From IMG/VR virus record IMGVR_UViG_3300006805_000180, positions 1 to 22,647 of that record: 22,647 bases of DNA; one strand, written 5' to 3'. Of the stretch, positions 44 through 9,720 are shown one piece after another (position 1 is the stretch's first letter; each line of letters starts with the position of its first letter). Under the pieces are notes generated by a model. That model ran no database searches, was not told the DNA's origin, and was given only the letters and a program-made list of their open reading frames with translations. Made by a program: the position numbers and the translations under genes. Source of the stretch: a virus.

Positions 44-77
44 AAGTACGCACTGTGGTGCGCACCTGTGCGTACTT
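44..77. promoter_or_regulatory. Nested palindrome upstream of the small terminase
   Basis: The 10-bp arms AAGTACGCAC (44-53) and GTGCGTACTT (68-77) are perfect inverse complements. Between them lies a second perfect palindrome, GGTGCGCACC (57-66). The element ends 13 bases before the preferred ATG of the terminase gene, so it could be an operator or a 5' leader hairpin. There is no T-run after it, so it is not a typical terminator. The function is inferred from position only. Confidence 0.45.
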
Positions 78-90
78 CTTTAATGACATA

Positions 91-693
91 ATGGCAAAAG
101 TTGAATATATATCCAAAAGAGCGTTTGCAAAGAAGATACACGTTAGTGAGGGTGCAGTACGTAAGGCCATTGAATCTGGTAAGATTATTAAAGGCTTCAA
201 CGCTCAGCTTAATAAAATAAATTTTGCTATTGCGTATGAAGAATATGGCCAGGCTAAAACCACACCCAAAGCTGGGCACGGTGTGTCGCATGAAAAGGTT
301 GCAGAAAAGCTTTCGAAGCAAAAACCGAACGACGAAGCGCACAATGATGATGAGCTAGAAGATGATCTTGCAGATATGAGTTACATCGAGCTCATTCAAA
401 AGGTAAAAATTAATCCTACACTTTCATACCAGGAAGGTTTGCGCCGCAGCCAGATACTTAAACTGGCCACTGAAAAAATAGAACTTGAAGAAAAACAAAC
501 CAGCCTGGTACGTAAAGCTGAAGTTGACAAAGCAATGTTTGCAATGGGCGATCAACTTAAAAAAGATTTACAAAGCATACCCAGCCGTGCAGTGGCATTG
601 ATAAGATCCGCTGCAACAGAAGTAGAAGCAAATAATATTCTTGCTTTCGAAATAAACCAGGTGCTTGAATCATTTGCAGGGCTTGGATCATAA
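91..693 (+). CDS. terS: Phage terminase small subunit (lambda Nu1-like)
   Basis: This is the DNA-recognition subunit that would load viral DNA onto the large terminase for packaging. The ATG at 91 gives 200 aa. An upstream GTG at 55 would add 12 residues, but it lies inside the palindrome at 44-77. The N-terminus (about residues 5-35) reads as a winged helix-turn-helix (KRAFAKKIHVSEGAVRKAIE), followed by an acidic linker and then a helical segment of the Nu1 type, with YQEGLRRSQILKLATEKIEL leading into LVRKAEVDKAMFAMGDQL. The length is close to Nu1 (181 aa). Its usual partner, the GpA-type large subunit, is about 7.1 kb downstream instead of adjacent. The stop codon TAA at 691-693 is already part of the first cargo site. 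The family call is from pattern recognition. Confidence 0.75.
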   Translation: MAKVEYISKRAFAKKIHVSEGAVRKAIESGKIIKGFNAQLNKINFAIAYEEYGQAKTTPKAGHGVSHEKVAEKLSKQKPNDEAHNDDELEDDLADMSYIELIQKVKINPTLSYQEGLRRSQILKLATEKIELEEKQTSLVRKAEVDKAMFAMGDQLKKDLQSIPSRAVALIRSAATEVEANNILAFEINQVLESFAGLGS

Positions 694-1580: not shown

Positions 1581-1702
1581 CAGCCAACGGTTTGTGGCTT
1601 GGCGATGTTGCCGAAACTGATGCTCAAAAAAGAGATGCAGTTGAAGTTACAATGTCAAGCAAAATTGAAAAACTGAACGGCAATATTGCCAAACCGCTTG
1701 TT
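1576..1702. repeat. attC-like site C with the right bracket of unit 2
   Basis: GGTAGCAGCCAAC (1576-1588) closes unit 2. The left arm CGGTTTG..GGCGATGTTGCCG (1588-1613) pairs with CGGCAATATTGCC..AAACCG (1678-1696). The left arm carries about six extra bases (TGGCTT), which would stay outside the helix. The interior is A/T-rich and encodes nothing visible. The site ends at the GTT of 1700-1702 that opens unit 3. Confidence 0.65.
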
Positions 1703-1714
1703 ATATGTAGTTGT
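1700..1714. repeat. Left bracket of cargo unit 3
   Basis: GTTATATGTAGTTGT is the inverse complement, at 13 of 15 positions, of ACAATTACACATAAC at 4010-4024. The pair encloses the 2.3-kb methyltransferase operon. The A/T-rich stretch 1715-1817 between it and the first gene holds a possible Bacteroidetes-type promoter (TTTG at 1770, TATTTTTTG at 1789), but the spacing is shorter than usual. Confidence 0.7.
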
Positions 1715-1817
1715 GGGTGCTAATTGATGTCGCTGCTATGAAAAACTAAAGTTCGGCTGTATTATTTTTTTTGAAGCTGCGGAGCATGTATTTTTTGTAT
1801 TTAAAAATCTTGAAATT

Positions 1818-2012
1818 ATGGATAATTCAATAGTAAAAATGGGGATGATAAAGTACGATGATGGTAAAGAGTATGGTGCTTTCTTTGAGATAGCAGGAAT
1901 TACTTTTAAATTACAGAAAGTAAAAACAAAACAAGCCGCAACTTTAGAAGTAAAAAGGCTTGTAAAAGCATTTTCTAAATTGCCAAATGTTGAAGAAACA
2001 AAAATGTTATGA
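1818..2012 (+). CDS. Small hypothetical protein upstream of the methyltransferase
   Basis: This 64-aa protein opens with MDNSIVKMGMIKYDDGKEYG and continues with a short beta-rich stretch and a basic helix (about residues 35-55). I recognise no family. It is the first gene of the unit 3 operon and overlaps the methyltransferase by 4 bp (ATGA), so the two are very likely translationally coupled. It may be an accessory or regulator of the methyltransferase, but nothing in the sequence proves this. Confidence 0.6.
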   Translation: MDNSIVKMGMIKYDDGKEYGAFFEIAGITFKLQKVKTKQAATLEVKRLVKAFSKLPNVEETKML

Positions 2013-2800
2013 TAGAATTACATCATGGAGATTGCTTAGAAATAATGCCTTCAATACCTGATAAAAGTATTGATATGATACTTTGTGATTTACCATACGG
2101 AACAACAGCTTGTAAATGGGACACGATAATACCATTTGACAAACTTTGGGAACAATACGAAAGGATTATAAAGCCGAATGGTGCAATAGCTTTATTTAGT
2201 AGTGAGCCTTTCGGCACTTACCTAAGAATAAGCAATATTAAATATTATAGGTATGATATAATTTGGGATAAAGAAACTGGCAATGGTAGCGTTCTTTGCC
2301 ATAAAAGACCATTAAAGCAGTTTGAAAAAATAAATGTTTTTTATAAAAATCAGCCTACTTATAACCCGCAAATGATAGAAAGGGATAAATCAAAGTACAG
2401 AACCCCGAGGGATATGTCCAAATGGAAGGACAGTATAACAGAAACAATGGGTATAAAAAGAATTAATCCAGTAAATTATGATGAAAATAAAAAATACCCA
2501 ACTGATATACTAAAATACAACTGTAAAGAAGCGGAGTTAAACTCAAAATATAAAATACATCCAACTCAAAAGCCCGTTTCATTAATCGGTAATTTAGTAA
2601 TGACTTACACTAATGAGGGTGAAACTGTTTTAGATAATTGTATGGGAAGCGGAACAACAGGGGTTGCTTGCAGAAATCTTAATCGTAATTTTATAGGCAT
2701 TGAAAAAGATGAAAAATATTTTGAAATAGCTAAAAAAAGAATAAATGAAGGAGCCAATAATGTTGAAAGAAACACAGAACAAATTAGCTTGCCATTATAG
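2009..2800 (+). CDS. Site-specific DNA methyltransferase, beta class (N6-adenine/N4-cytosine type)
   Basis: The protein would transfer a methyl group from S-adenosylmethionine to an exocyclic amino group in DNA. It has 263 aa, typical of solitary phage methyltransferases. Motif IV DLPYGT is at residues 27-32, followed by the conserved KWD. HPTQKPV is at 184-190, and the SAM-binding motif VLDNCMGSGTTGVA is at 207-220. The order catalytic motif before SAM motif is the beta class of the N4/N6 methyltransferase family. DLPYG favours adenine as target, but this is not certain. No restriction gene is coupled to it within unit 3, so it looks like an orphan methyltransferase, perhaps shielding phage DNA or acting on packaging or expression. 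It is coupled by overlap to 1818-2012 and 2760-2942. Confidence 0.9.
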   Translation: MIELHHGDCLEIMPSIPDKSIDMILCDLPYGTTACKWDTIIPFDKLWEQYERIIKPNGAIALFSSEPFGTYLRISNIKYYRYDIIWDKETGNGSVLCHKRPLKQFEKINVFYKNQPTYNPQMIERDKSKYRTPRDMSKWKDSITETMGIKRINPVNYDENKKYPTDILKYNCKEAELNSKYKIHPTQKPVSLIGNLVMTYTNEGETVLDNCMGSGTTGVACRNLNRNFIGIEKDEKYFEIAKKRINEGANNVERNTEQISLPL

Positions 2801-2942
2801 CCTTACTGGGAATACTGATTATGATAATGGGTATAATCAAGCAGTTAAAGACTTATGCAAGGTTATTAGAGATGCTATTGATAAACCCGATAATCAGTGG
2901 TACACAAAACAAATTTTAGAACAAATTTTAAAATCTTACTAA
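2760..2942 (+). CDS. Small hypothetical protein
   Basis: The protein has 60 aa from the ATG at 2760. AAGGAG at 2748-2753 is a well-placed ribosome binding site for this start, so I prefer it to the ATG at 2745. The gene begins inside the end of the methyltransferase gene. Residues include TDYDNGYNQAVKDLCKVIRD and a C-terminal helix. No family is recognised; the style fits small phage early genes. Confidence 0.55.
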   Translation: MLKETQNKLACHYSLTGNTDYDNGYNQAVKDLCKVIRDAIDKPDNQWYTKQILEQILKSY

Positions 2943-2944
2943 TT

Positions 2945-3166
2945 ATGAAAACTGCAATGCAATTTTGTTTAGAAAAGTTTATGGTAGAAATATCAAACGA
3001 AGATGCCGCAAAATTAATTGATATGGAAATGGAACAAATAACTAACGCTTTTGTAAATGGTATGATGCAAGGTTGCACTTTGCAATTAAGGGAAGAATTT
3101 AAAATGGTGCAAACACCAGAACAATTTTTTAACGAAAAATATAAAGACAATAAGAAAATGGGATAA
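2945..3166 (+). CDS. Small hypothetical protein, paralogue of 3490-3723
   Basis: The protein has 73 aa from the ATG at 2945, two bases after the preceding stop. It starts MKTAMQ and carries an I(T/V)(N/D)AF..G pattern and a KY-containing tail (EQFFNEKYKDN). The gene at 3490 has the same layout (MKTALQ, QIVDAFEEG, YLNSKYNQND), so the two are probably diverged duplicates. I remember this kind of short protein from Bacteroidetes phages, without a known function. Confidence 0.55.
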   Translation: MKTAMQFCLEKFMVEISNEDAAKLIDMEMEQITNAFVNGMMQGCTLQLREEFKMVQTPEQFFNEKYKDNKKMG

Positions 3167-3179
3167 ATACAGGTGCGAT

Positions 3180-3275
3180 ATGTGCAATGATAGCGGTGCT
3201 GTTACCACTGGTATTTCAGAAGATGGGCATACCATTTATTCTACCTGCCCATGCGTTGATGATGAAAGAAACTAA
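3180..3275 (+). CDS. Possible 31-aa zinc-knuckle microprotein
   Basis: The frame from the ATG at 3180 encodes MCNDSGAVTT followed by a CPC ending, TAA at 3273-3275. The frame is open further upstream and reads KWDKYRCDMCNDSG just before, giving a CxxC..CxC layout typical of small zinc-ribbon proteins. There is no ATG further upstream, so translation could start at 3180 or by coupling from 3166. It fills an otherwise empty gap in a tight operon. Confidence 0.35.
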   Translation: MCNDSGAVTTGISEDGHTIYSTCPCVDDERN

Positions 3276-3280
3276 TAACA

Positions 3281-3493
3281 ATGGAAAATATTTTTACGAT
3301 AAAGAAGGATAAGCTAAGAGAAATAGGCTATGATTTTGCCGAAAGTTTTTATAAATGGTGTAAAAACAATAGGATTAAAATTGAAGAACCGAAAAATAAT
3401 AAGACTGGACTTTATGAAACTTTTGTAGTTCATCTTGATACTACTGAAAAGCAATTTTTATTTTCAAATAAATACTTAAAAACACTAAAATGA
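3281..3493 (+). CDS. Small hypothetical protein
   Basis: This is a 70-aa basic protein (FAESFYKWCKNNRIKIEEPK..LYETFVVHLDTTEKQFLF) with no recognised domain. It lies in the middle of the unit 3 operon and overlaps the next start by 4 bp (ATGA at 3490-3493), which indicates translational coupling. Confidence 0.5.
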   Translation: MENIFTIKKDKLREIGYDFAESFYKWCKNNRIKIEEPKNNKTGLYETFVVHLDTTEKQFLFSNKYLKTLK

Positions 3494-3723
3494 AAACGGC
3501 ATTACAAGAGTTATTATCATGGGCAAAACACCCAATCGAAGATGGTGAAGTTAACCACTCTCTGTATAGTAAGATAAATGAACTGATGGAAAAAGAAAAA
3601 CAGCAAATAGTAGATGCTTTTGAAGAAGGTGTAAATATTGGAATGAACGGAATTTACGCAGAAAGATTTTCTGCTGATATTTATTTAAACTCAAAATATA
3701 ATCAAAATGACAAAGACATTTGA
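3490..3723 (+). CDS. Small hypothetical protein, paralogue of 2945-3166
   Basis: This 77-aa protein has MKTALQELLSWA at the N-terminus, a central MEKEKQQIVDAFEEG helix and YLNSKYNQND near the end. It shares layout with 2945-3166. It overlaps genes on both sides (4 bp and 17 bp). The function is unknown; it belongs to a class of small proteins I have seen in Bacteroidetes phage early operons. Confidence 0.55.
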   Translation: MKTALQELLSWAKHPIEDGEVNHSLYSKINELMEKEKQQIVDAFEEGVNIGMNGIYAERFSADIYLNSKYNQNDKDI

Positions 3724-3946
3724 ATTAAAAGAAAGCCCAATTTTTGATGATGAAGAACTTTATACTTCATTTACAGAATGGCATCAAAGAGTAGCCGAAG
3801 AAAGAATGGTATTAAACGAAATACTGGCTAATGAGCCTGATGGATTTGAAAGGCGCAAGGAATTATACAATAACTTTTACCGTAAAATCGGTATGGTATC
3901 AAACGATATGTTCAATGATTTCACAAATGTTATTAACGAAGACTAA
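3707..3946 (+). CDS. Small hypothetical protein, last gene of unit 3
   Basis: This 79-aa acidic protein (FDDEELYTSFTEWHQRVAEE, then ERRKELYNNFYRKIGMVSND) is probably all-helical, with no recognised family. It overlaps the previous gene by 17 bp and is followed by 63 non-coding bases before the bracket repeat at 4010. Confidence 0.5.
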   Translation: MTKTFELKESPIFDDEELYTSFTEWHQRVAEERMVLNEILANEPDGFERRKELYNNFYRKIGMVSNDMFNDFTNVINED

Positions 3947-4009
3947 TGTGTGGCTTGGGTAAAAAAAATAATACAGTTATCCGTCTGCCCCATAAATGGT
4001 ATGCTGGTA

Positions 4010-4212
4010 ACAATTACACATAACGAACAGGGCTTGCCGAAGTACGGGAATTAGTATTCCGTCCGCCCATGACCGCTGCTGATTAAGAAACTGAAGTTGA
4101 AGATAACAACAAAAAGCTAAATAGAATTACGTCAAGCTGGATATGAAGCACAATAGAATTACCGCAGATGAAGATAACTTGGGTCAGCCCGTATTTTGGC
4201 AAACCCATTGTT
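4010..4212. repeat. attC-like site D with the right bracket of unit 3
   Basis: ACAATTACACATAAC (4010-4024) closes unit 3. The arm GAACAGGGCTTGCCGAAGTACGGG (to 4048) pairs with CCCGTATTTTGGCAAACCCATTG (4188-4210), with two extra bases in the left arm. The interior (4049-4187) is A/T-rich and non-coding and shares the CCGCTGCTGAT module with site B. A stretch at 3979-3994 (TTATCCGTCTGCCCCA) resembles 783-794 in site A and may be a remnant of another copy. Together with the hairpin at 4273-4350, this fills the 453-base gap between 3946 and 4400; I see no gene in it. Confidence 0.7.
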
Positions 4213-4224
4213 ATGCGTTCGCCC
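4210..4224. repeat. Left bracket of cargo unit 4
   Basis: GTTATGCGTTCGCCC is the inverse complement of GGGTGACGCATAAC at 6844-6857 apart from one gap and one mismatch. The pair encloses the restriction-modification gene and its two hairpins. Confidence 0.65.
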
Positions 4225-4272
4225 TTCTGTCCACCGTTGTTTTAATTGTGTGTCGGGGTTTTAGAAGCGTCT

Positions 4273-4350
4273 GCAAGCCGCAAAGGGGTACAAAGGTTAG
4301 CGTTGTGTCAAGGTTTTTGTGTGCCTTTGTACCTGTTTGTCGGCTTTTGC
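4273..4350. repeat. Hairpin element E, constant loop and variable stem, upstream of the RM gene
   Basis: The inner stem is GGTACAAAGG (4287-4296) with CCTTTGTACC (4324-4333), and the outer is GCAAGCCG (4273-4280) with CGGCTTTTGC (4341-4350). The 27-base loop holds TGTGTCAAGGTTTTTGTG. The sequence before it, AGAAGCGTCTGCAAG, and the loop recur at element F (6674-6753), but the stem bases differ while pairing is kept. Confidence 0.7.
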
Positions 4351-4399
4351 GTAGGATGTTTTATCTTGTCGGCATTTCTATTAAAGCAAATAATTTATT

Positions 4400-6664
4400 A
4401 TGGCAAATAAAATTTATAAAGGAGTGAAAAGCGAAACTATAACTGAAAATATATTTAGGGGTTTTTATGGTGCTGATGCTTTCATAGAAAAGTCGGCTAT
4501 TCCAAAAGAATTTGGCTTCCAATCAAAAAACAATACAAACTACAAGGGTTATCCCGACTTCCTTAGAGAAGAAGAAGATTACTTTATTGTTGTCGAAGCT
4601 AAAGCAACTATACATAAGGAAGCCGTGTCAGAAGTAAACCACTACATGACTATTAATAAGATTGAAAAAGATATTATTGGTATTGCTGTGTCTGGGCAAA
4701 ATTTAAGTGATTTGAAGGTAAATTATTTTCTGAAAATTCAAGGTGGTGATGTTGTTTCCTTAAAAACTAACAATGCTTTGCTTGCTTTGTCTAACATTGA
4801 TAGGTTATTTAGGCAAAATAAATATGGCGAAAGTGTTTCTGCTGAAAGTCTAACAACGGTATTAAAAAGCCTAAATAAGACTTTTAATTCAGAAAATAAA
4901 GTAAGGGATGCAGACAGAAGTTTATTTTTTTCAGGTTTAATGATTGCGTTAAAAGATAATACATTTAGAAGCACTTATAAGAATATACAAACTCCTTCCG
5001 AAGATGAAGTAAAGTCAAAAAAGCATACAGTTCTTGAAGCTCATAATTTAAACAATGCGATATTAGAAGCTATTACAAGACAGTTAACTAACAAAATAAA
5101 CAACCTTTCAAAAGAATATAATTGGAGAGATAGATTTTCATTTATAAAAAATATAGATTACTCAATTATTGAGTACAGAAAAATTATTGATACGATTGAA
5201 AAGAATATTTACAAGCCGTTTCAAAATGATGAAAAGCATGATATACTTGGCAAGGCATACAAAATATTTTTGTCAAGAGCAGGGAAAATAGATAATAAGA
5301 ATATTATCTTAACTCCTGACCATATAAAAAGCCTAATGGTTGAATTAGCAAGACTAAATGCTAATGATGTAGTAATTGATACTTGTGCTGGCACAGGTGG
5401 TTTTTTGATGGAAGCAATGGAAGTAATGATTACAAAGGCAAATAATGATGATGCTATTATTCATAACATAAAAGAACACCAACTGTTGGGATTTGAAGTT
5501 GACCCTGTATTGTTTGCCTTAGCTTGTTCAAATATGTTTTTGCATGGCGATGGCAGAACCAATATGTTGTTTAGGAGCAGTTTGTTAAATGATAGACACG
5601 AAAGCATTTTAAACAATAAGGACGCAGAACTTTTAAAGTTCATACAAGATACTAAGCCAACAAAGTGCATAATCAACCCCCCATACGAAAACAACAACTC
5701 AATAAAATTTGTAAAACAGGCGATTGATTACTTAGAGCCTAATGGGAAGCTGGTTATTATTATGCCAACCCCCACTTTGACACAAAACCAAAATGGATTG
5801 GCAAAGGAACTACTTGAAATTGCTAAGTTGGATTTTGTTATAAAGATGCCATTTAAAATCTTTACAGAGCAGAAAAGAACAGTAAATACCTCTGTTTTTG
5901 GTTTTACGAAAACTCCACATCAGCAAAATGATGAAGTGTTGTTTTATCACTTAGAAGATGATGGGTTTGTAAGTATTCAACATAAAGGAAGGGTTGATAA
6001 ATATAAAAAATGGGATGCAATAAGAGCAGATGTTATACATAGTATTTTGAACTCAACAGAGAAAAAAGGTGTTTGCGAAAAACGTAAAATATTCAAAGAT
6101 GGCATTCTGAACTTTGCTGGTGTTCCAAATATTTATAATCGAAAGTCAAAAATGATTTTGATTGATGATTTGTTTATTGTCGAAAAAGGTTCTTTAGCAA
6201 GTGAAAACAGCGAAGAAGGAGAGTATGACTTTGTTACTGGGTCTGAAGATTGGAAACAACATAATTCATACGACTACGATAAAGAAGCTATTGTTTATGT
6301 TGTTTCTGCTGCTGGTTCACTTGGTAGAAGCCATTATGTAAACGGAAAGTTTATTGCAAGTAATTTATGTCTTGTATTAACGCCTAAACAATCTAAAGAC
6401 TACCCAATTAATTTAAAGTTTTATAACACCTACTTTAATTATATAAGAAAACAAATGGTTTCAGACTTGGCTGATGGTACTTCAAAACTTACAATTAGAG
6501 AAGACGATTTGAAAGCATATTATATTGATTATATTGATATAAAGTATCAAAATGACTTTGCAAAGAACCATATTGAACCGTTCCAAAAAAAGCAACATCA
6601 ATTAAAGCAGGAAATTGAAAAGTTGTCAAATACAATAAATAGTAGCTTAGTAAAGATACTTTGA
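4400..6664 (+). CDS. Type IIG-like restriction-modification enzyme (nuclease, N6-adenine methylase, target recognition)
   Basis: This 754-aa protein seems to carry a whole restriction-modification system. The N-terminal about 100 residues hold a PD-(D/E)XK nuclease motif: GYPD (D53) followed by VVEAKA (E66, K68). The central part is an HsdM-like methylase: LTPDHI at 304-309, SAM motif DTCAGTGGF at 327-335, and catalytic NPPY at 426-429. The last about 180 residues resemble an HsdS-type target recognition domain (EKGSLASENSEEGEYDFVTG, with TSKLTIREDDL later). The order nuclease-methylase-specificity matches type IIG enzymes. The gene is A/T-rich compared with the head genes, sits alone in cargo unit 4, and lies between hairpins E and F. 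A probable role is exclusion of competing DNA. Activity as a nuclease is inferred from motifs only. Confidence 0.85.
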   Translation: MANKIYKGVKSETITENIFRGFYGADAFIEKSAIPKEFGFQSKNNTNYKGYPDFLREEEDYFIVVEAKATIHKEAVSEVNHYMTINKIEKDIIGIAVSGQNLSDLKVNYFLKIQGGDVVSLKTNNALLALSNIDRLFRQNKYGESVSAESLTTVLKSLNKTFNSENKVRDADRSLFFSGLMIALKDNTFRSTYKNIQTPSEDEVKSKKHTVLEAHNLNNAILEAITRQLTNKINNLSKEYNWRDRFSFIKNIDYSIIEYRKIIDTIEKNIYKPFQNDEKHDILGKAYKIFLSRAGKIDNKNIILTPDHIKSLMVELARLNANDVVIDTCAGTGGFLMEAMEVMITKANNDDAIIHNIKEHQLLGFEVDPVLFALACSNMFLHGDGRTNMLFRSSLLNDRHESILNNKDAELLKFIQDTKPTKCIINPPYENNNSIKFVKQAIDYLEPNGKLVIIMPTPTLTQNQNGLAKELLEIAKLDFVIKMPFKIFTEQKRTVNTSVFGFTKTPHQQNDEVLFYHLEDDGFVSIQHKGRVDKYKKWDAIRADVIHSILNSTEKKGVCEKRKIFKDGILNFAGVPNIYNRKSKMILIDDLFIVEKGSLASENSEEGEYDFVTGSEDWKQHNSYDYDKEAIVYVVSAAGSLGRSHYVNGKFIASNLCLVLTPKQSKDYPINLKFYNTYFNYIRKQMVSDLADGTSKLTIREDDLKAYYIDYIDIKYQNDFAKNHIEPFQKKQHQLKQEIEKLSNTINSSLVKIL

Positions 6665-6673
6665 TGGTGTCCT

Positions 6674-6762
6674 AAGAAGCGTATGCAAGATTTTAGCTCT
6701 TTTGCAGGTTTGGTCTGTGTCAAGGTTTTGTGAGCCTGCAAATGTGCTAAAATGTGTGTCGG
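6674..6762. repeat. Hairpin element F, downstream of the RM gene
   Basis: This is a second copy of element E. AGAAGCGTATGCAAG leads into stem arms ATTTTAGC (6690-6697) and TTTGCAGG (6701-6708), which pair with CCTGCAAA (6735-6742) and GCTAAAAT (6746-6753). The loop holds TGTGTCAAGGTTTTGTG, nearly identical to E, while the stem sequence is different but still complementary. It starts 10 bases after the RM stop codon and could also act in transcript 3'-end formation, though no T-run follows. Confidence 0.7.
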
Positions 6763-6843
6763 CAAAGAAGCAGAGCTATTAAAACAAATTTGAAATACTG
6801 TCGCCCAAAATGTCAACTGTCTGCCGATTAAAGGACTGTCGCA

Positions 6844-6857
6844 GGGTGACGCATAAC
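6844..6857. repeat. Right bracket of cargo unit 4, array end
   Basis: GGGTGACGCATAAC matches the inverse complement of 4210-4224. Unlike after units 1-3, no second site arm follows before the recombinase gene at 6898. The array therefore appears to end in a half or truncated site. Confidence 0.55.
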
Positions 6858-6897
6858 ATCTTTCTTCCCGCACTCTTTATAATAATCAATAACTTAT

Positions 6898-7782
6898 ATG
6901 TCACGTAAACAAGAACTACTTAACCAATTTAAAAAGGAACTGCAACTTCGTAACTATGCCCCAAACAGCATAGATACCTATTCCGGTTACCTGGGCCAGT
7001 TCTTAGATGCAATGCAGGGCGCACCAAAGCCACTACCACTGCAGCATATAAAAGATTTTTTATTAAAGATCACCAATATGAATACCAGGGCAATGTATGT
7101 AATCAGCATCCGTAATTTTTACAACTTCGTTTTAAAAACACCGCTGAATCTTGATGATATTCCATACCCGCGCAAAACCAACTATCTGCCCCAAATACTC
7201 AGCATACAGGAAGTTCAGCGTTTAATAAATGGAACGCAGAATATTAAACACCGGGCAATGCTGCAGATAATCTATAGTTGCGGATTGCGGGTAAGCGAAG
7301 TGCCCGAAATTGAATGCAATAAAACCATTTGCCATATAGATAGCGATCGTAAAACATTGCTGGTAAAAGGTGCCAAAGGTTTTAAAGATCGTTACGTACC
7401 ACTTCCATTGCCAACCATTAACCTTTTAAAAACTTATCGTAAAACAGATCCTGTGGGCAAGTGGTTGTTCATGGGGCAAAACCAGCAAAAATATACGGTA
7501 CGCAGTATTCAGCAGGTGTTTCACCAGGCAAAGCAACGGGCAGGTATTTATAAAAAAGTAACTACGCATTCGCTTCGGCATAGCAGGGCTACTCATTTAT
7601 GCGAAGGTGGTATGGATATTTACGAGCTTAAGATATTCCTGGGCCATAATAATATAAAAACAACCGAAATTTATTTGCACCTCAGTAAATCAGCATTGGT
7701 AAGCAAAACCGAAATGGCAGATTTAATAATCGCACAGGCACTGGCAAATACTGAAATGCGGCTCGAATTTGCTCATGCATAA
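6898..7782 (+). CDS. Tyrosine recombinase / integrase
   Basis: This 294-aa site-specific recombinase would cut and rejoin DNA through a 3'-phosphotyrosine. A SAM-like core-binding domain (about residues 4-85) precedes the catalytic domain. The expected residues are visible: R131 in CGLRVSE, a lysine in VKGAKGFKDRYVPL (K160 or K163), H224 and R227 in THSLRH, H250 in LGHNN, and nucleophile Y259 in TEIYLHL. The overall form is XerC/D-like. I do not see the extra helix insertion that marks integron integrases before the HxxR box. The protein could integrate the phage, resolve dimers or act on the adjacent cassette sites; the sequence does not decide. Its position between the small and large terminase genes is unusual. 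Confidence 0.9.
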   Translation: MSRKQELLNQFKKELQLRNYAPNSIDTYSGYLGQFLDAMQGAPKPLPLQHIKDFLLKITNMNTRAMYVISIRNFYNFVLKTPLNLDDIPYPRKTNYLPQILSIQEVQRLINGTQNIKHRAMLQIIYSCGLRVSEVPEIECNKTICHIDSDRKTLLVKGAKGFKDRYVPLPLPTINLLKTYRKTDPVGKWLFMGQNQQKYTVRSIQQVFHQAKQRAGIYKKVTTHSLRHSRATHLCEGGMDIYELKIFLGHNNIKTTEIYLHLSKSALVSKTEMADLIIAQALANTEMRLEFAHA

Positions 7783-7845: not shown

Positions 7846-9720
7846 ATGTCTACCAACCCCATCATAGATTACAGCATCATCGCCGGTTTCCTTCGTGGCA
7901 TCCGTCCGGATCCTTTGCTCACCGTTTCGCAGTGGGCCGATCATCACCGCGTACTGCCACAAACAAACAGTGAACCCGGTCGTTTCCGCACCAGCCGCAC
8001 ACCATACAACAGGGAAATTGCCGACAGGCTCAGCGCCACCGATCCTGCACAGATCATTATCTTTAAAAAATCATCGCAGATCGGTGCCACTGAAACTGCA
8101 AACAATTGGGTAGGTTACGATATCGACATAGCCCCCGCTCCTATGCTCTACATCATGCCCACCGATACCATGATGAAAGACACCAGCAAAAACCGCATTC
8201 AGAAGCTGATAGATACCACGCCGCGCATCAAAGCAAAGATCAAACCCAGCAAGGCCAAAGACAGCGGCAATACCATACAGTATAAAGAATTCGAAGGCGG
8301 GTTTATAAAAATGGTTGGTGCCAATAGCCCGGTAGGTTTAGCCTCCACTGCTGTGCGTTATGTTTATGCCGATGAAGTAGACCGTTACCCCCTCGATGTT
8401 GGCGGCGAAGGTTCAGCCCTCGACCTGGCTAAAACCCGTACCATTAGCTTTGGTGCCCGAAAGAAAATATTCATTACAAGTACACCCACAAAGAAAGGCA
8501 CCAGTGTTATCGACAATGCATTTAAAGAAACCGGCCAGCGGTATTATCATGTGCCCTGCCCGCATTGTGGCAGCGGCCAGGTATTAAAATTCGAGCAACT
8601 GCGTTGGACAAAAGGCGACTACACCACCGTAGAATACGAATGCATCCATTGCCGCACCAATATTTCCGAATTCCACAAAACCCGCATGATCACTGCCGGC
8701 TGCTGGCTTGCCACTCATCCGGAGAAAGAAGATGGCATTACCTACGGCTACCACATCAATGCATTGTATGCACCGCAGGGCTGGTATAGCTGGGGCGAAA
8801 TGGCAAAAGATTACGATGATAGCGAAGGCAACATTCCAAAGCGCATCACTTTCATAAATACAAAGCTGGGCGAGTGTTACGAAGAAGAGGGCGAGGTGCC
8901 CGATTACCAGCGCCTCTATGCCTTACGTGAGCTATATAAACAAAACACCCTCATGCCCGAAGTATCATTTATCACTGCAGGTGTCGATGTTCAGGCAGAT
9001 CGCTTAGAGCTGGAAATCGTGGGGTGGATAAAAGGCAAAGAAAGCCAGAGCATAGATTACCGAATCATAAGCGGCGACACCAGTAACCCCGACACCTGGA
9101 AGAAACTTGACTTTGTGCTCAATGAAACATTTGCCAAAGCAGATGGTACCCTGTTCCCCGTTTCAGCAATGGCAATAGATACCGGTTACAACACAAAGTA
9201 TGTGTACGATTTCTGTATGCGCTACCAGGGCCTTAACCGCGTGTTTCCCGTAAAAGGCAGCGATGCCCTCGCCACCATGTACAGCGCCCCAAAAGCGGTG
9301 CAGGTAACCCGTGCAGGGCAAAAGGTAAACAGCATCAAAGTATTTCATGTGGGTGTAAGCCTTATAAAAAGCGAGTTGTATGGATGGTTAAAGCTCAATC
9401 CCAACGAAGATAAAACCTACCCGCCCGGTTATTGTCATTTCCCGCAGTACGATACCCATTATTTCCGGGGCATCACTGCCGAAAAACTCGAACGCAAAAC
9501 CAATAAAAAAGGCTTTGCAGTGTACGAGTGGGTAAAGGTTTATAAAAGAAACGAGGCGCTCGATTGCCGGGTATATGCCCGTGCCGCCGCCGCCATCTTC
9601 GGCATGGATTTTATGAAAGAGGAACATTGGCAAAAGCTGCAAAGCACCATACCCGCAACCAGCGGTAAAGAGCCAGCAATCAATAAACAAAAAAAGAAAA
9701 AACGCGAAAGCATCTGGTAA
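7846..9720 (+). CDS. terL: Phage terminase large subunit (GpA family)
   Basis: This is the packaging motor ATPase and nuclease that would cut concatemeric phage DNA and drive it into the prohead. At 624 aa it is close to lambda gpA (641). The ATPase domain has the adenine-side region GRFRTSRTPYNREI, a deviant Walker A KKSSQIGATE (74-83), Walker B VYADEVD (173-179) and the coupling motif TSTPT (211-215). A zinc knuckle of CPHC (238-241) and CIHC (266-269) follows, as in the GpA family. The nuclease domain shows acidic residues in GVDVQAD (D381) and AIDTGYN (D445). The gene starts at the ATG at 7846 just after a dispersed repeat. Its usual neighbour, the small subunit, is at 91-693. Confidence 0.95.
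   Translation: MSTNPIIDYSIIAGFLRGIRPDPLLTVSQWADHHRVLPQTNSEPGRFRTSRTPYNREIADRLSATDPAQIIIFKKSSQIGATETANNWVGYDIDIAPAPMLYIMPTDTMMKDTSKNRIQKLIDTTPRIKAKIKPSKAKDSGNTIQYKEFEGGFIKMVGANSPVGLASTAVRYVYADEVDRYPLDVGGEGSALDLAKTRTISFGARKKIFITSTPTKKGTSVIDNAFKETGQRYYHVPCPHCGSGQVLKFEQLRWTKGDYTTVEYECIHCRTNISEFHKTRMITAGCWLATHPEKEDGITYGYHINALYAPQGWYSWGEMAKDYDDSEGNIPKRITFINTKLGECYEEEGEVPDYQRLYALRELYKQNTLMPEVSFITAGVDVQADRLELEIVGWIKGKESQSIDYRIISGDTSNPDTWKKLDFVLNETFAKADGTLFPVSAMAIDTGYNTKYVYDFCMRYQGLNRVFPVKGSDALATMYSAPKAVQVTRAGQKVNSIKVFHVGVSLIKSELYGWLKLNPNEDKTYPPGYCHFPQYDTHYFRGITAEKLERKTNKKGFAVYEWVKVYKRNEALDCRVYARAAAAIFGMDFMKEEHWQKLQSTIPATSGKEPAINKQKKKKRESIW

Follow-up and report, generated by a model that had tools for sequence, protein, structure and literature searches.

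A probable integron-like cassette array beside a tyrosine recombinase gene in a phage of Bacteroidota

The viral fragment IMGVR_UViG_3300006805_000180 of IMG/VR, analysed over its whole 22,647 bases and here called the window, comes from a phage of Bacteroidota and carries a tailed-phage gene set, with both terminase genes and, beyond them, a contractile-tail sheath gene and further open reading frames (ORFs) that read as structural. Between the genes for the small (TerS) and large (TerL) terminase subunits lies a 7-kb cargo region of four gene units, followed by the gene for a 294-residue tyrosine recombinase. Each unit has GTT and a short bracket at its start and the complementary bracket and AAC at its end, set against an imperfect hairpin site. 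The locus raises the question of what these units are and whether the neighbouring recombinase moves them. An earlier note on this DNA had proposed that on circularisation the brackets and site arms would join into one continuous stem, much as in the attC sites of integrons. Our analysis indicates that a phage-borne, integron-like cassette array with an adjacent recombinase very probably explains the units, in a register that differs from the one first proposed.

Paired unit ends and hairpin sites

The arms of unit 3 lie where the earlier note had put them, with the bracket at 1700-1714 (GTTATATGTAGTTGT) and 4010-4024 (ACAATTACACATAAC) pairing by Watson-Crick rules at 13 of 15 positions (the other two being G.T and A.C) and the site D arms at 4030-4048 and 4188-4206. 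The same geometry recurs in units 1 and 2, as had been claimed, and a fourth unit, 4210 to 6857, fits as well, its ends (GTTATGCGTTCGCCC / GGGTGACGCATAAC) being complementary too. As a control for chance, ends were permuted between units. Over 37 units from 14 loci the mean own-end pairing was 8.8 versus 4.1 when permuted, none of 20,000 permutations being as high, and each of the four window units pairs best with its own end among all ends. A second set comprised 46 chromosomal units from 13 other genomes, the sites of which were defined by a covariance model, R1, that spans AAC to GTT only and is blind to the brackets. Here the own-end mean was 11.8 versus 4.4 (again 0/20,000), and in 43 of the 46 units, as compared to 1.9 expected, the tetranucleotide that follows GTT is an exact complement of the one preceding AAC. 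The earlier judgement that such repetition is unlikely by chance is borne out, as own-end pairing lies above all permutations in both data sets. The complementary ends lie up to 2.6 kb apart.

The sites share the form AAC-(4 to 7)-GGGCTT..L''..loop..L'..AAACCC-(2 to 4)-GTT. The two extra bases noted earlier in the left arm amount to a 5-base spacer facing a 3-base one, and they recur across the site family. Compensatory changes among homologues, which the earlier note had named as a check, are two-sided at 14 of 19 stem pairs in alignment A2 (28 sites) and at 18 of 19 in A3 (86 model hits from other arrays). Covariation was 0.532 in A2 (0.135 shuffled, at most 0.126 slid) and 0.629 in A3 (0.165 shuffled), values that lean towards structure because the A2 scanner demanded a stem and A3 was fitted to the model, a bias from which the bracket tests are free. 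Two non-Watson-Crick positions are conserved, a C.A in GGGC/ACCC (unpaired in 25 of the 28 sites) and a G.T further in (24/28). By analogy with the unpaired features of attC, the C.A mismatch, the G.T wobble and the 5/3 spacers would make the two strands unequal, and the mismatch and wobble could set strand choice as the extrahelical bases of attC do. Rfam returned no match in the window and the exact site-D pattern none in viral contigs; a pattern match in Aldersonia (L016) was discarded as chance, since R1 finds nothing there.

When the predicted circular junctions were folded, as the earlier note had suggested, units 1 and 2 reached -35 to -39 kcal on the top strand versus about -24 to -30 for shuffled or swapped brackets (0/100), cassette 1 with its site A giving -38.4 versus -29.1 shuffled (0/100). 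Unit 4 also folded better than its controls on the top strand (1/100), and the prediction found weak support in unit 3. Either neighbouring site yields an equal stem, and folding energy alone therefore cannot assign a site to a unit.

Unit boundaries and the site beside the recombinase gene

We place the unit boundaries from AAC to AAC because of insertions and deletions among the Freya and Danklef phages, a cassette shared between chromosomes, and the last window unit, whose own bracket closes despite there being no site on its right. The Polaribacter phages Freya_1 to Freya_10 were all isolated on a single host strain during a single campaign, and each was deposited as a genome of its own (PMC8776804). 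The seven of these ten that we compared show 0-4 differences over 43,888 backbone positions, and wherever they differ in length the difference is an AAC-to-AAC segment lying between the integrase gene and one other gene. At the array end Freya_1 reads TTGTTTACAAC|ACCCCTATAACAAC..integrase, and between the last AAC and ACCCC Freya_2 has an additional 842 bp, Freya_5 a further 902 bp and Freya_6 a further 472 bp, the insertion point of the cassettes being the site beside the integrase gene. That 902-bp cassette also distinguishes Freya_8 from Freya_10, at an interior position, and a terminal 307-bp cassette distinguishes Freya_9 from Freya_10. Similarly, Danklef_4 is without exactly one adenine-methylase cassette of Danklef_1 (junction CTCTAAC|TAAAAAG), and a 1.16-kb cassette common to Freya and Danklef (99.6%), which are different phage species, is homologous from AAC to AAC. 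In the four cassettes where it could be located, a hairpin site stands at the segment start, and its GTT bracket is complementary to the end of that segment; by simple search the Freya cassettes c2, c7 and c8 have no clear site or bracket and may be composite or decayed. Two chromosomes also have one cassette in common (99.7% over 1,047 bp), with AAC limits and the left-hand site included. The Freya (L102-L108) and Danklef (L109-L111) genomes amount to a natural experiment, in which near-identical isolates hold different cassette sets beside the integrase gene. In Danklef this gene is only a 132-bp annotated remnant, yet the isolates differ by one cassette.

These comparisons resolve the boundary to AAC, a stretch of three bases rather than a single phosphate, and for the window they do so by homology only. 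Read this way, the mobile unit would be C-site-gene-AA with its own site upstream of its gene, and the predicted units of the window are 694-1094, 1095-1587, 1588-4023 and 4024-6856. The part of the earlier attC reading that stands is that the outer stem of an attC-like site is completed by the two ends of the unit itself on circularisation; the register has to be revised. Instead of a crossover at the right-arm GTT, the boundary is AA|C (G|TT on the other strand) in the left arm of each site, and instead of a junction of 4210 to 1701 with site D, the unit 3 circle would be C1588...A4023, with its bracket and site C. Pairing each bracket with the downstream site was given up after the Freya comparison.

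All features of the array are on the plus strand. Cassette 1 (694-1094; bracket 812-826 / 1081-1095, ranking first among 37 ends) combines a small ORF (830-1084) with site A (692-814; AAC 692-694, GTT 812-814; inverted repeat I6; R1 67.2 bits, E 1.8e-14), the most divergent of the four sites, with its stem ACGCTTTGTGCAGGTGG/CCACTTGCACAAAGCGT at 699-715/792-808. Cassette 2 (1095-1587; bracket 1277-1291 / 1574-1588, supported by end permutation and folding) holds site B (1093-1279; stem 1100-1121 / 1253-1273; R1 52.6 bits, E 9e-11) and an ORF for an unknown protein. Its first-start frame (1113-1580) passes through site B and an ATG lies on the junction (CCATGTTGG), so the site may provide a start codon or leader to the next gene, whichever gene that is. 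Cassette 3 (1588-4023; bracket 1700-1714 / 4010-4024, likewise by end permutation and folding) contains site C (1586-1702; stem 1596-1613 / 1678-1695; R1 70.9 bits, E 2e-15), a DNA methyltransferase gene (2009-2800; PF01555 1.6e-32, phrog_67 4e-82) and small ORFs up to 3946. Finally, cassette 4 (4024-6856; bracket 4210-4224 / 6844-6857) contains site D (4022-4212; R1 69.9 bits, E 3.6e-15) and the gene of a 754-residue N6 methylase (4400-6664).

The fourth unit closes at 6857, just 5' of the recombinase gene, and directly upstream of that gene lies a putative attI-like primary site, AACATCTTTCTTCCCGCACTCT (6855-6876, plus strand). The motif is conserved in a 74%-identical relative, L003, as AACATCTTTTTTAATGCACTCT; after the last AAC the window reads ATCTTTCTTCCCGCACTCT and L003 reads ATCTTTTTTAATGCACTCT, and the cassettes before it are unrelated. 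In the window, in L003 and in the phages G009 and G011, the final unit is closed by its own bracket a short distance 5' of the integrase gene. Chromosomal arrays close likewise in eight of nine cases, followed by a sequence resembling AAC-n-C-nn-AAATA-n-ACGC, which in most of them is near the 3' end of the recombinase gene. The conserved motif at the integrase end matches what an attI should look like, and the reverse complement of the window version (AGAGTGCGGGAAGAAAGATG|TTATG) is comparable by eye to the attI of Shewanella (..GCGCACTAATAAAATGTT) (PMC9892861).

At the opposite end of the array, the TAA stop (691-693) of the TerS gene (55-693, plus strand; phrog_57 4e-12) overlaps the left boundary AAC (692-694), and both in the window and in L003 this boundary falls on the stop codon of the upstream gene, TAA|C. 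The right flank of the cargo region is the gene for a GpA-type TerL (7846-9720, plus strand; PF05876 7e-85). The TerL relatives L008-L013 are without arrays, which means that the window phage lineage does not carry the array throughout.

Recombinase, spread and cargo

The recombinase (6898-7782, plus strand; PF00589 2.3e-34) is IntI/XerA-like. Among NCBIfam models it scores 199 bits with NF040815 (XerA-like/integron integrases) and 134 bits, versus a cut-off of 265, with TIGR02249 (integron integrase). By the alignment, the enzyme has all the catalytic residues (R, K, H-x-x-R, H and Y). The alignment to VchIntIA (2A3V) breaks at the IntI-specific insertion, where the window enzyme has 34 residues versus 77 in IntI, and the distance from K-beta to HxLRH is 67 residues in the window and 64-72 in all Bacteroidota members measured, versus 107 in IntI1. 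The enzyme therefore lacks the additional domain near patch III by which an IntI is recognised. In the tree it belongs to a group apart from housekeeping XerC/D, within which the phage, chromosomal, rAID (recombinase-associated acquired interbacterial defence) and IntI branches are not resolved; an E-value gap of 1e-35 versus 1e-30 separates the subfamily from the XerC/D of the same genomes. A scan of genome contigs with weak peptide patterns only, drawn from a two-sequence integrase alignment, gave no relative. The chromosomal recombinases (L070-L097) are mostly 350-475 residues long, with about 100 extra N-terminal residues relative to the phage enzymes. Outside the phylum, Acinetobacter plasmids have a recombinase gene beside tet(X3) (L127, NZ_CP104735, 1528-2193), the product of which shares 49.8% identity with the chromosomal cassette recombinase L070. 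In L127, tet(X3) is immediately followed by a weak, truncated R1 match (15.5 bits); tet(X) may have been carried out of Bacteroidota in the form of such a cassette.

Window-type sites were first found in host contigs of Chitinophagaceae. R1 sites are present in at least 94 of 147 genomes of the family and at least 167 of 247 genomes of the class Bacteroidia, as compared to none of 149 Actinobacteriota genomes, a control group that differs in base composition. Genomes with the recombinase subfamily have sites in 53 of 57 cases versus 41 of 90 without it (p 8e-10, uncorrected for kinship), and sites in the latter would be either decayed arrays or arrays served by another recombinase. Draft contigs may split arrays. 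One contig (G384:C2:1-60000; L112-L114) is superintegron-like, with more than 20 sites that face the same way along about 60 kb.

In chromosomal arrays the longest ORF is antisense to the site in 37 units and sense in 4, with 7:0 in three further contigs, which, read on the other strand, is the arrangement of a classical integron. Phage arrays have the longest ORF sense to the site in all 23 cases (23:0 versus a chromosomal 4:44, p 7e-15). This opposite polarity argues that phage cassettes are not simply chromosomal cassettes in transit. As the phage genes follow the site and read towards the integrase gene, an outward Pc promoter could not serve them; the array would instead be read from the surrounding phage late operon, which would select cassettes of that polarity.

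DNA methyltransferases are abundant in the phage cargo. The window carries an N4/N6 methyltransferase, the 754-residue IIG-like methylase, for which the closest PADLOC model is a type IIG restriction-methyltransferase, and small unknown proteins; L003 carries a C5 methyltransferase and a phosphoesterase. Anti-restriction would be the natural reading of such cargo. Among phages, the best nucleotide relative of the window methyltransferase is that of Polaribacter phage P12002L, in which Qi et al. described a cluster of attC sites lacking integron-integrase (CALIN) that was tested with IntI1 (PMC9892861). Weak R1 matches are present in P12002L (L098) on the minus strand at 32798-32924 (25 bits) and 39123-39244 (20 bits). 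On a chromosome (G134), an R1 site follows, at a distance of 11 bp, the end of a gene whose product is related (49%) to the window methyltransferase.

Mechanism, alternatives and known systems

In the mechanism that we propose, one cassette is one mobile unit, C-[L''-loop-L']-GTT-R'-gene-R''-AA. Complementarity of R' and R'' would let a circle, or one folded strand, form a continuous R-spacer-L hairpin resembling attC. The adjacent tyrosine recombinase, the presumed catalyst, would then join the AA|C edge (the G|TT of the complement being the integron crossover dinucleotide) to the AAC-containing attI-like site, with a circle as the putative intermediate and a folded single strand as the putative substrate, to which own-end complementarity and the strand-asymmetric mismatches point indirectly. 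Cassettes would be added at the integrase-proximal end and excised anywhere in the array, and the phage would probably use this to exchange its accessory genes, among them DNA methyltransferases, to counter host restriction and defence. The comparison of sequences shows the unit boundaries, the gain and loss of whole cassettes, the closure of the last unit, the R'/R'' complementarity and the L-stem covariation.

It is improbable that the window simply holds a canonical integron or a CALIN, that is, ordinary attC cassettes taken from a chromosomal integron and served by IntI. The R''-L''-L'-R' layout, the G|TT crossover on one strand and the attI-like site would all be expected in that case, and phage integrons and CALINs with methyltransferases have already been reported, one of them in P12002L (PMC9892861). 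However, the recombinase is without the IntI insertion of about 40 residues and falls below the integron integrase cut-off, own-end complementarity runs well past the 7-base R box, and the direction of the phage genes relative to the site is the reverse of the chromosomal one. Still less probable is a process free of any recombinase, in which modular phages undergo homologous recombination at short repeats and the hairpins are terminators or RNA elements. Phages are mosaic, intergenic stem-loops often terminate transcripts, and the phage gene direction suits a late operon, but such a process does not account for exact AAC-to-AAC differences in otherwise identical genomes, for end complementarity over such distances or for closure at the integrase, and the window is without an Rfam match. 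That the units are transposons, with the brackets as terminal inverted repeats and AAC as a target duplication, seems least credible of all. Inverted ends and precise insertions would suit transposons; on the other hand the bracket sequence differs from unit to unit, there is no transposase, the arrays run head to tail, the target is always an AAC at the array, an internal conserved site of fixed layout is present, and no unit was seen inserted at an unrelated AAC elsewhere in a genome.

Several observations also weigh against the integron-like cassette array that we favour. The unit 3 junction folds only marginally better than its controls (5-8/100), and the phage is represented by one 22.6-kb fragment, the window, to which there is no sister isolate. 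The Freya integrase is only 28% identical to that of the window and its place in the tree is unsure, so transfer of the Freya evidence to the window rests on shared architecture. Lastly, 41 of the 90 genomes without the recombinase subfamily still have sites.

Among known systems, XerC/XerD-dif resembles ours in its simple tyrosine recombinase of about 290 residues, and differs in that we find hairpin sites and no dif-type 28-bp double-strand site. The rAID arrays of Bacteroidales have a tyrosine recombinase and conserved intergenic motifs (PMC12247911); the enzyme is of the same broad group and is followed by co-oriented short genes. The rAID recombinase is 33.6% identical to that of the window, and that of a rAID-like Bacteroides ovatus plasmid 45.8% identical to L070. 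In contrast, rAID cargo consists of orphan immunity genes and is not phage-borne, and no immunity family is found among the methyltransferases, phosphoesterase and unknown proteins carried by the window and L003. The B. ovatus plasmid (L128, 4698-10777) has a row of immunity-type genes that starts with a recombinase of this group. As R1 detects no site in this rAID-like locus, any homologous rAID sites would differ in shape.

The closest likeness is to the integron, whose cassettes consist of a gene and an imperfect hairpin site with R and L boxes, one strand of which has its crossover at G|TT. As in attC, R'' pairs here with R' and L'' with L', and the spacers stay unpaired; also shared is a head-to-tail array that would grow at an attI-like site by means of a recombinase, and the methyltransferase cargo is that of reported phage integrons and CALINs (PMC9892861). 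The differences are that the recombinase is without the IntI-specific domain, that end complementarity extends over 8 to 15 or more bases rather than 7, that strand asymmetry lies in the 5/3 spacers, the C.A mismatch and the G.T wobble rather than in demonstrated extrahelical bases, and that phage cassettes have their gene downstream of the site, directed at the integrase gene. The system thus works like an integron without being a member of that class as defined by IntI. Integrons are reported to be rare in Bacteroidetes, where an integrase without cassettes was all that was known before a complete integron was described in Salinibacter; for Bacteroidetes proper, IntegronFinder 2 lists a single complete integron among complete genomes (PMC9024848). 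We found no paper describing this site family or its phage version in a literature that we covered incompletely. It is reasonably likely that Bacteroidota and their phages have an unnamed integron class of their own, with a simple IntI/XerA-like recombinase devoid of the IntI domain and self-matched cassette ends, present in most Bacteroidia genomes, with arrays of tens of kilobases, outside standard integron detection, and with an inverted-gene phage version that trades anti-restriction genes. Where integrons were counted as rare, two thirds of the sampled Bacteroidia genomes, as well as several phages, here turn out to have an integron-like system, and some phages appear to run a gene-capture system of their own. 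To the authors of the Freya paper, who do not mention integrons, the integrase indicated a temperate lifestyle (PMC8776804); as that gene sits at the site of cassette capture, an "integrase" in such phages need not mean lysogeny, and the ten existing isolates already offer a natural experiment in how cassettes come and go. Compared with the integron, where the attC-type hairpin cassette and the IntI-specific domain are usually assumed to be linked, the two are separated here, which makes the evolution of integron recombination testable.

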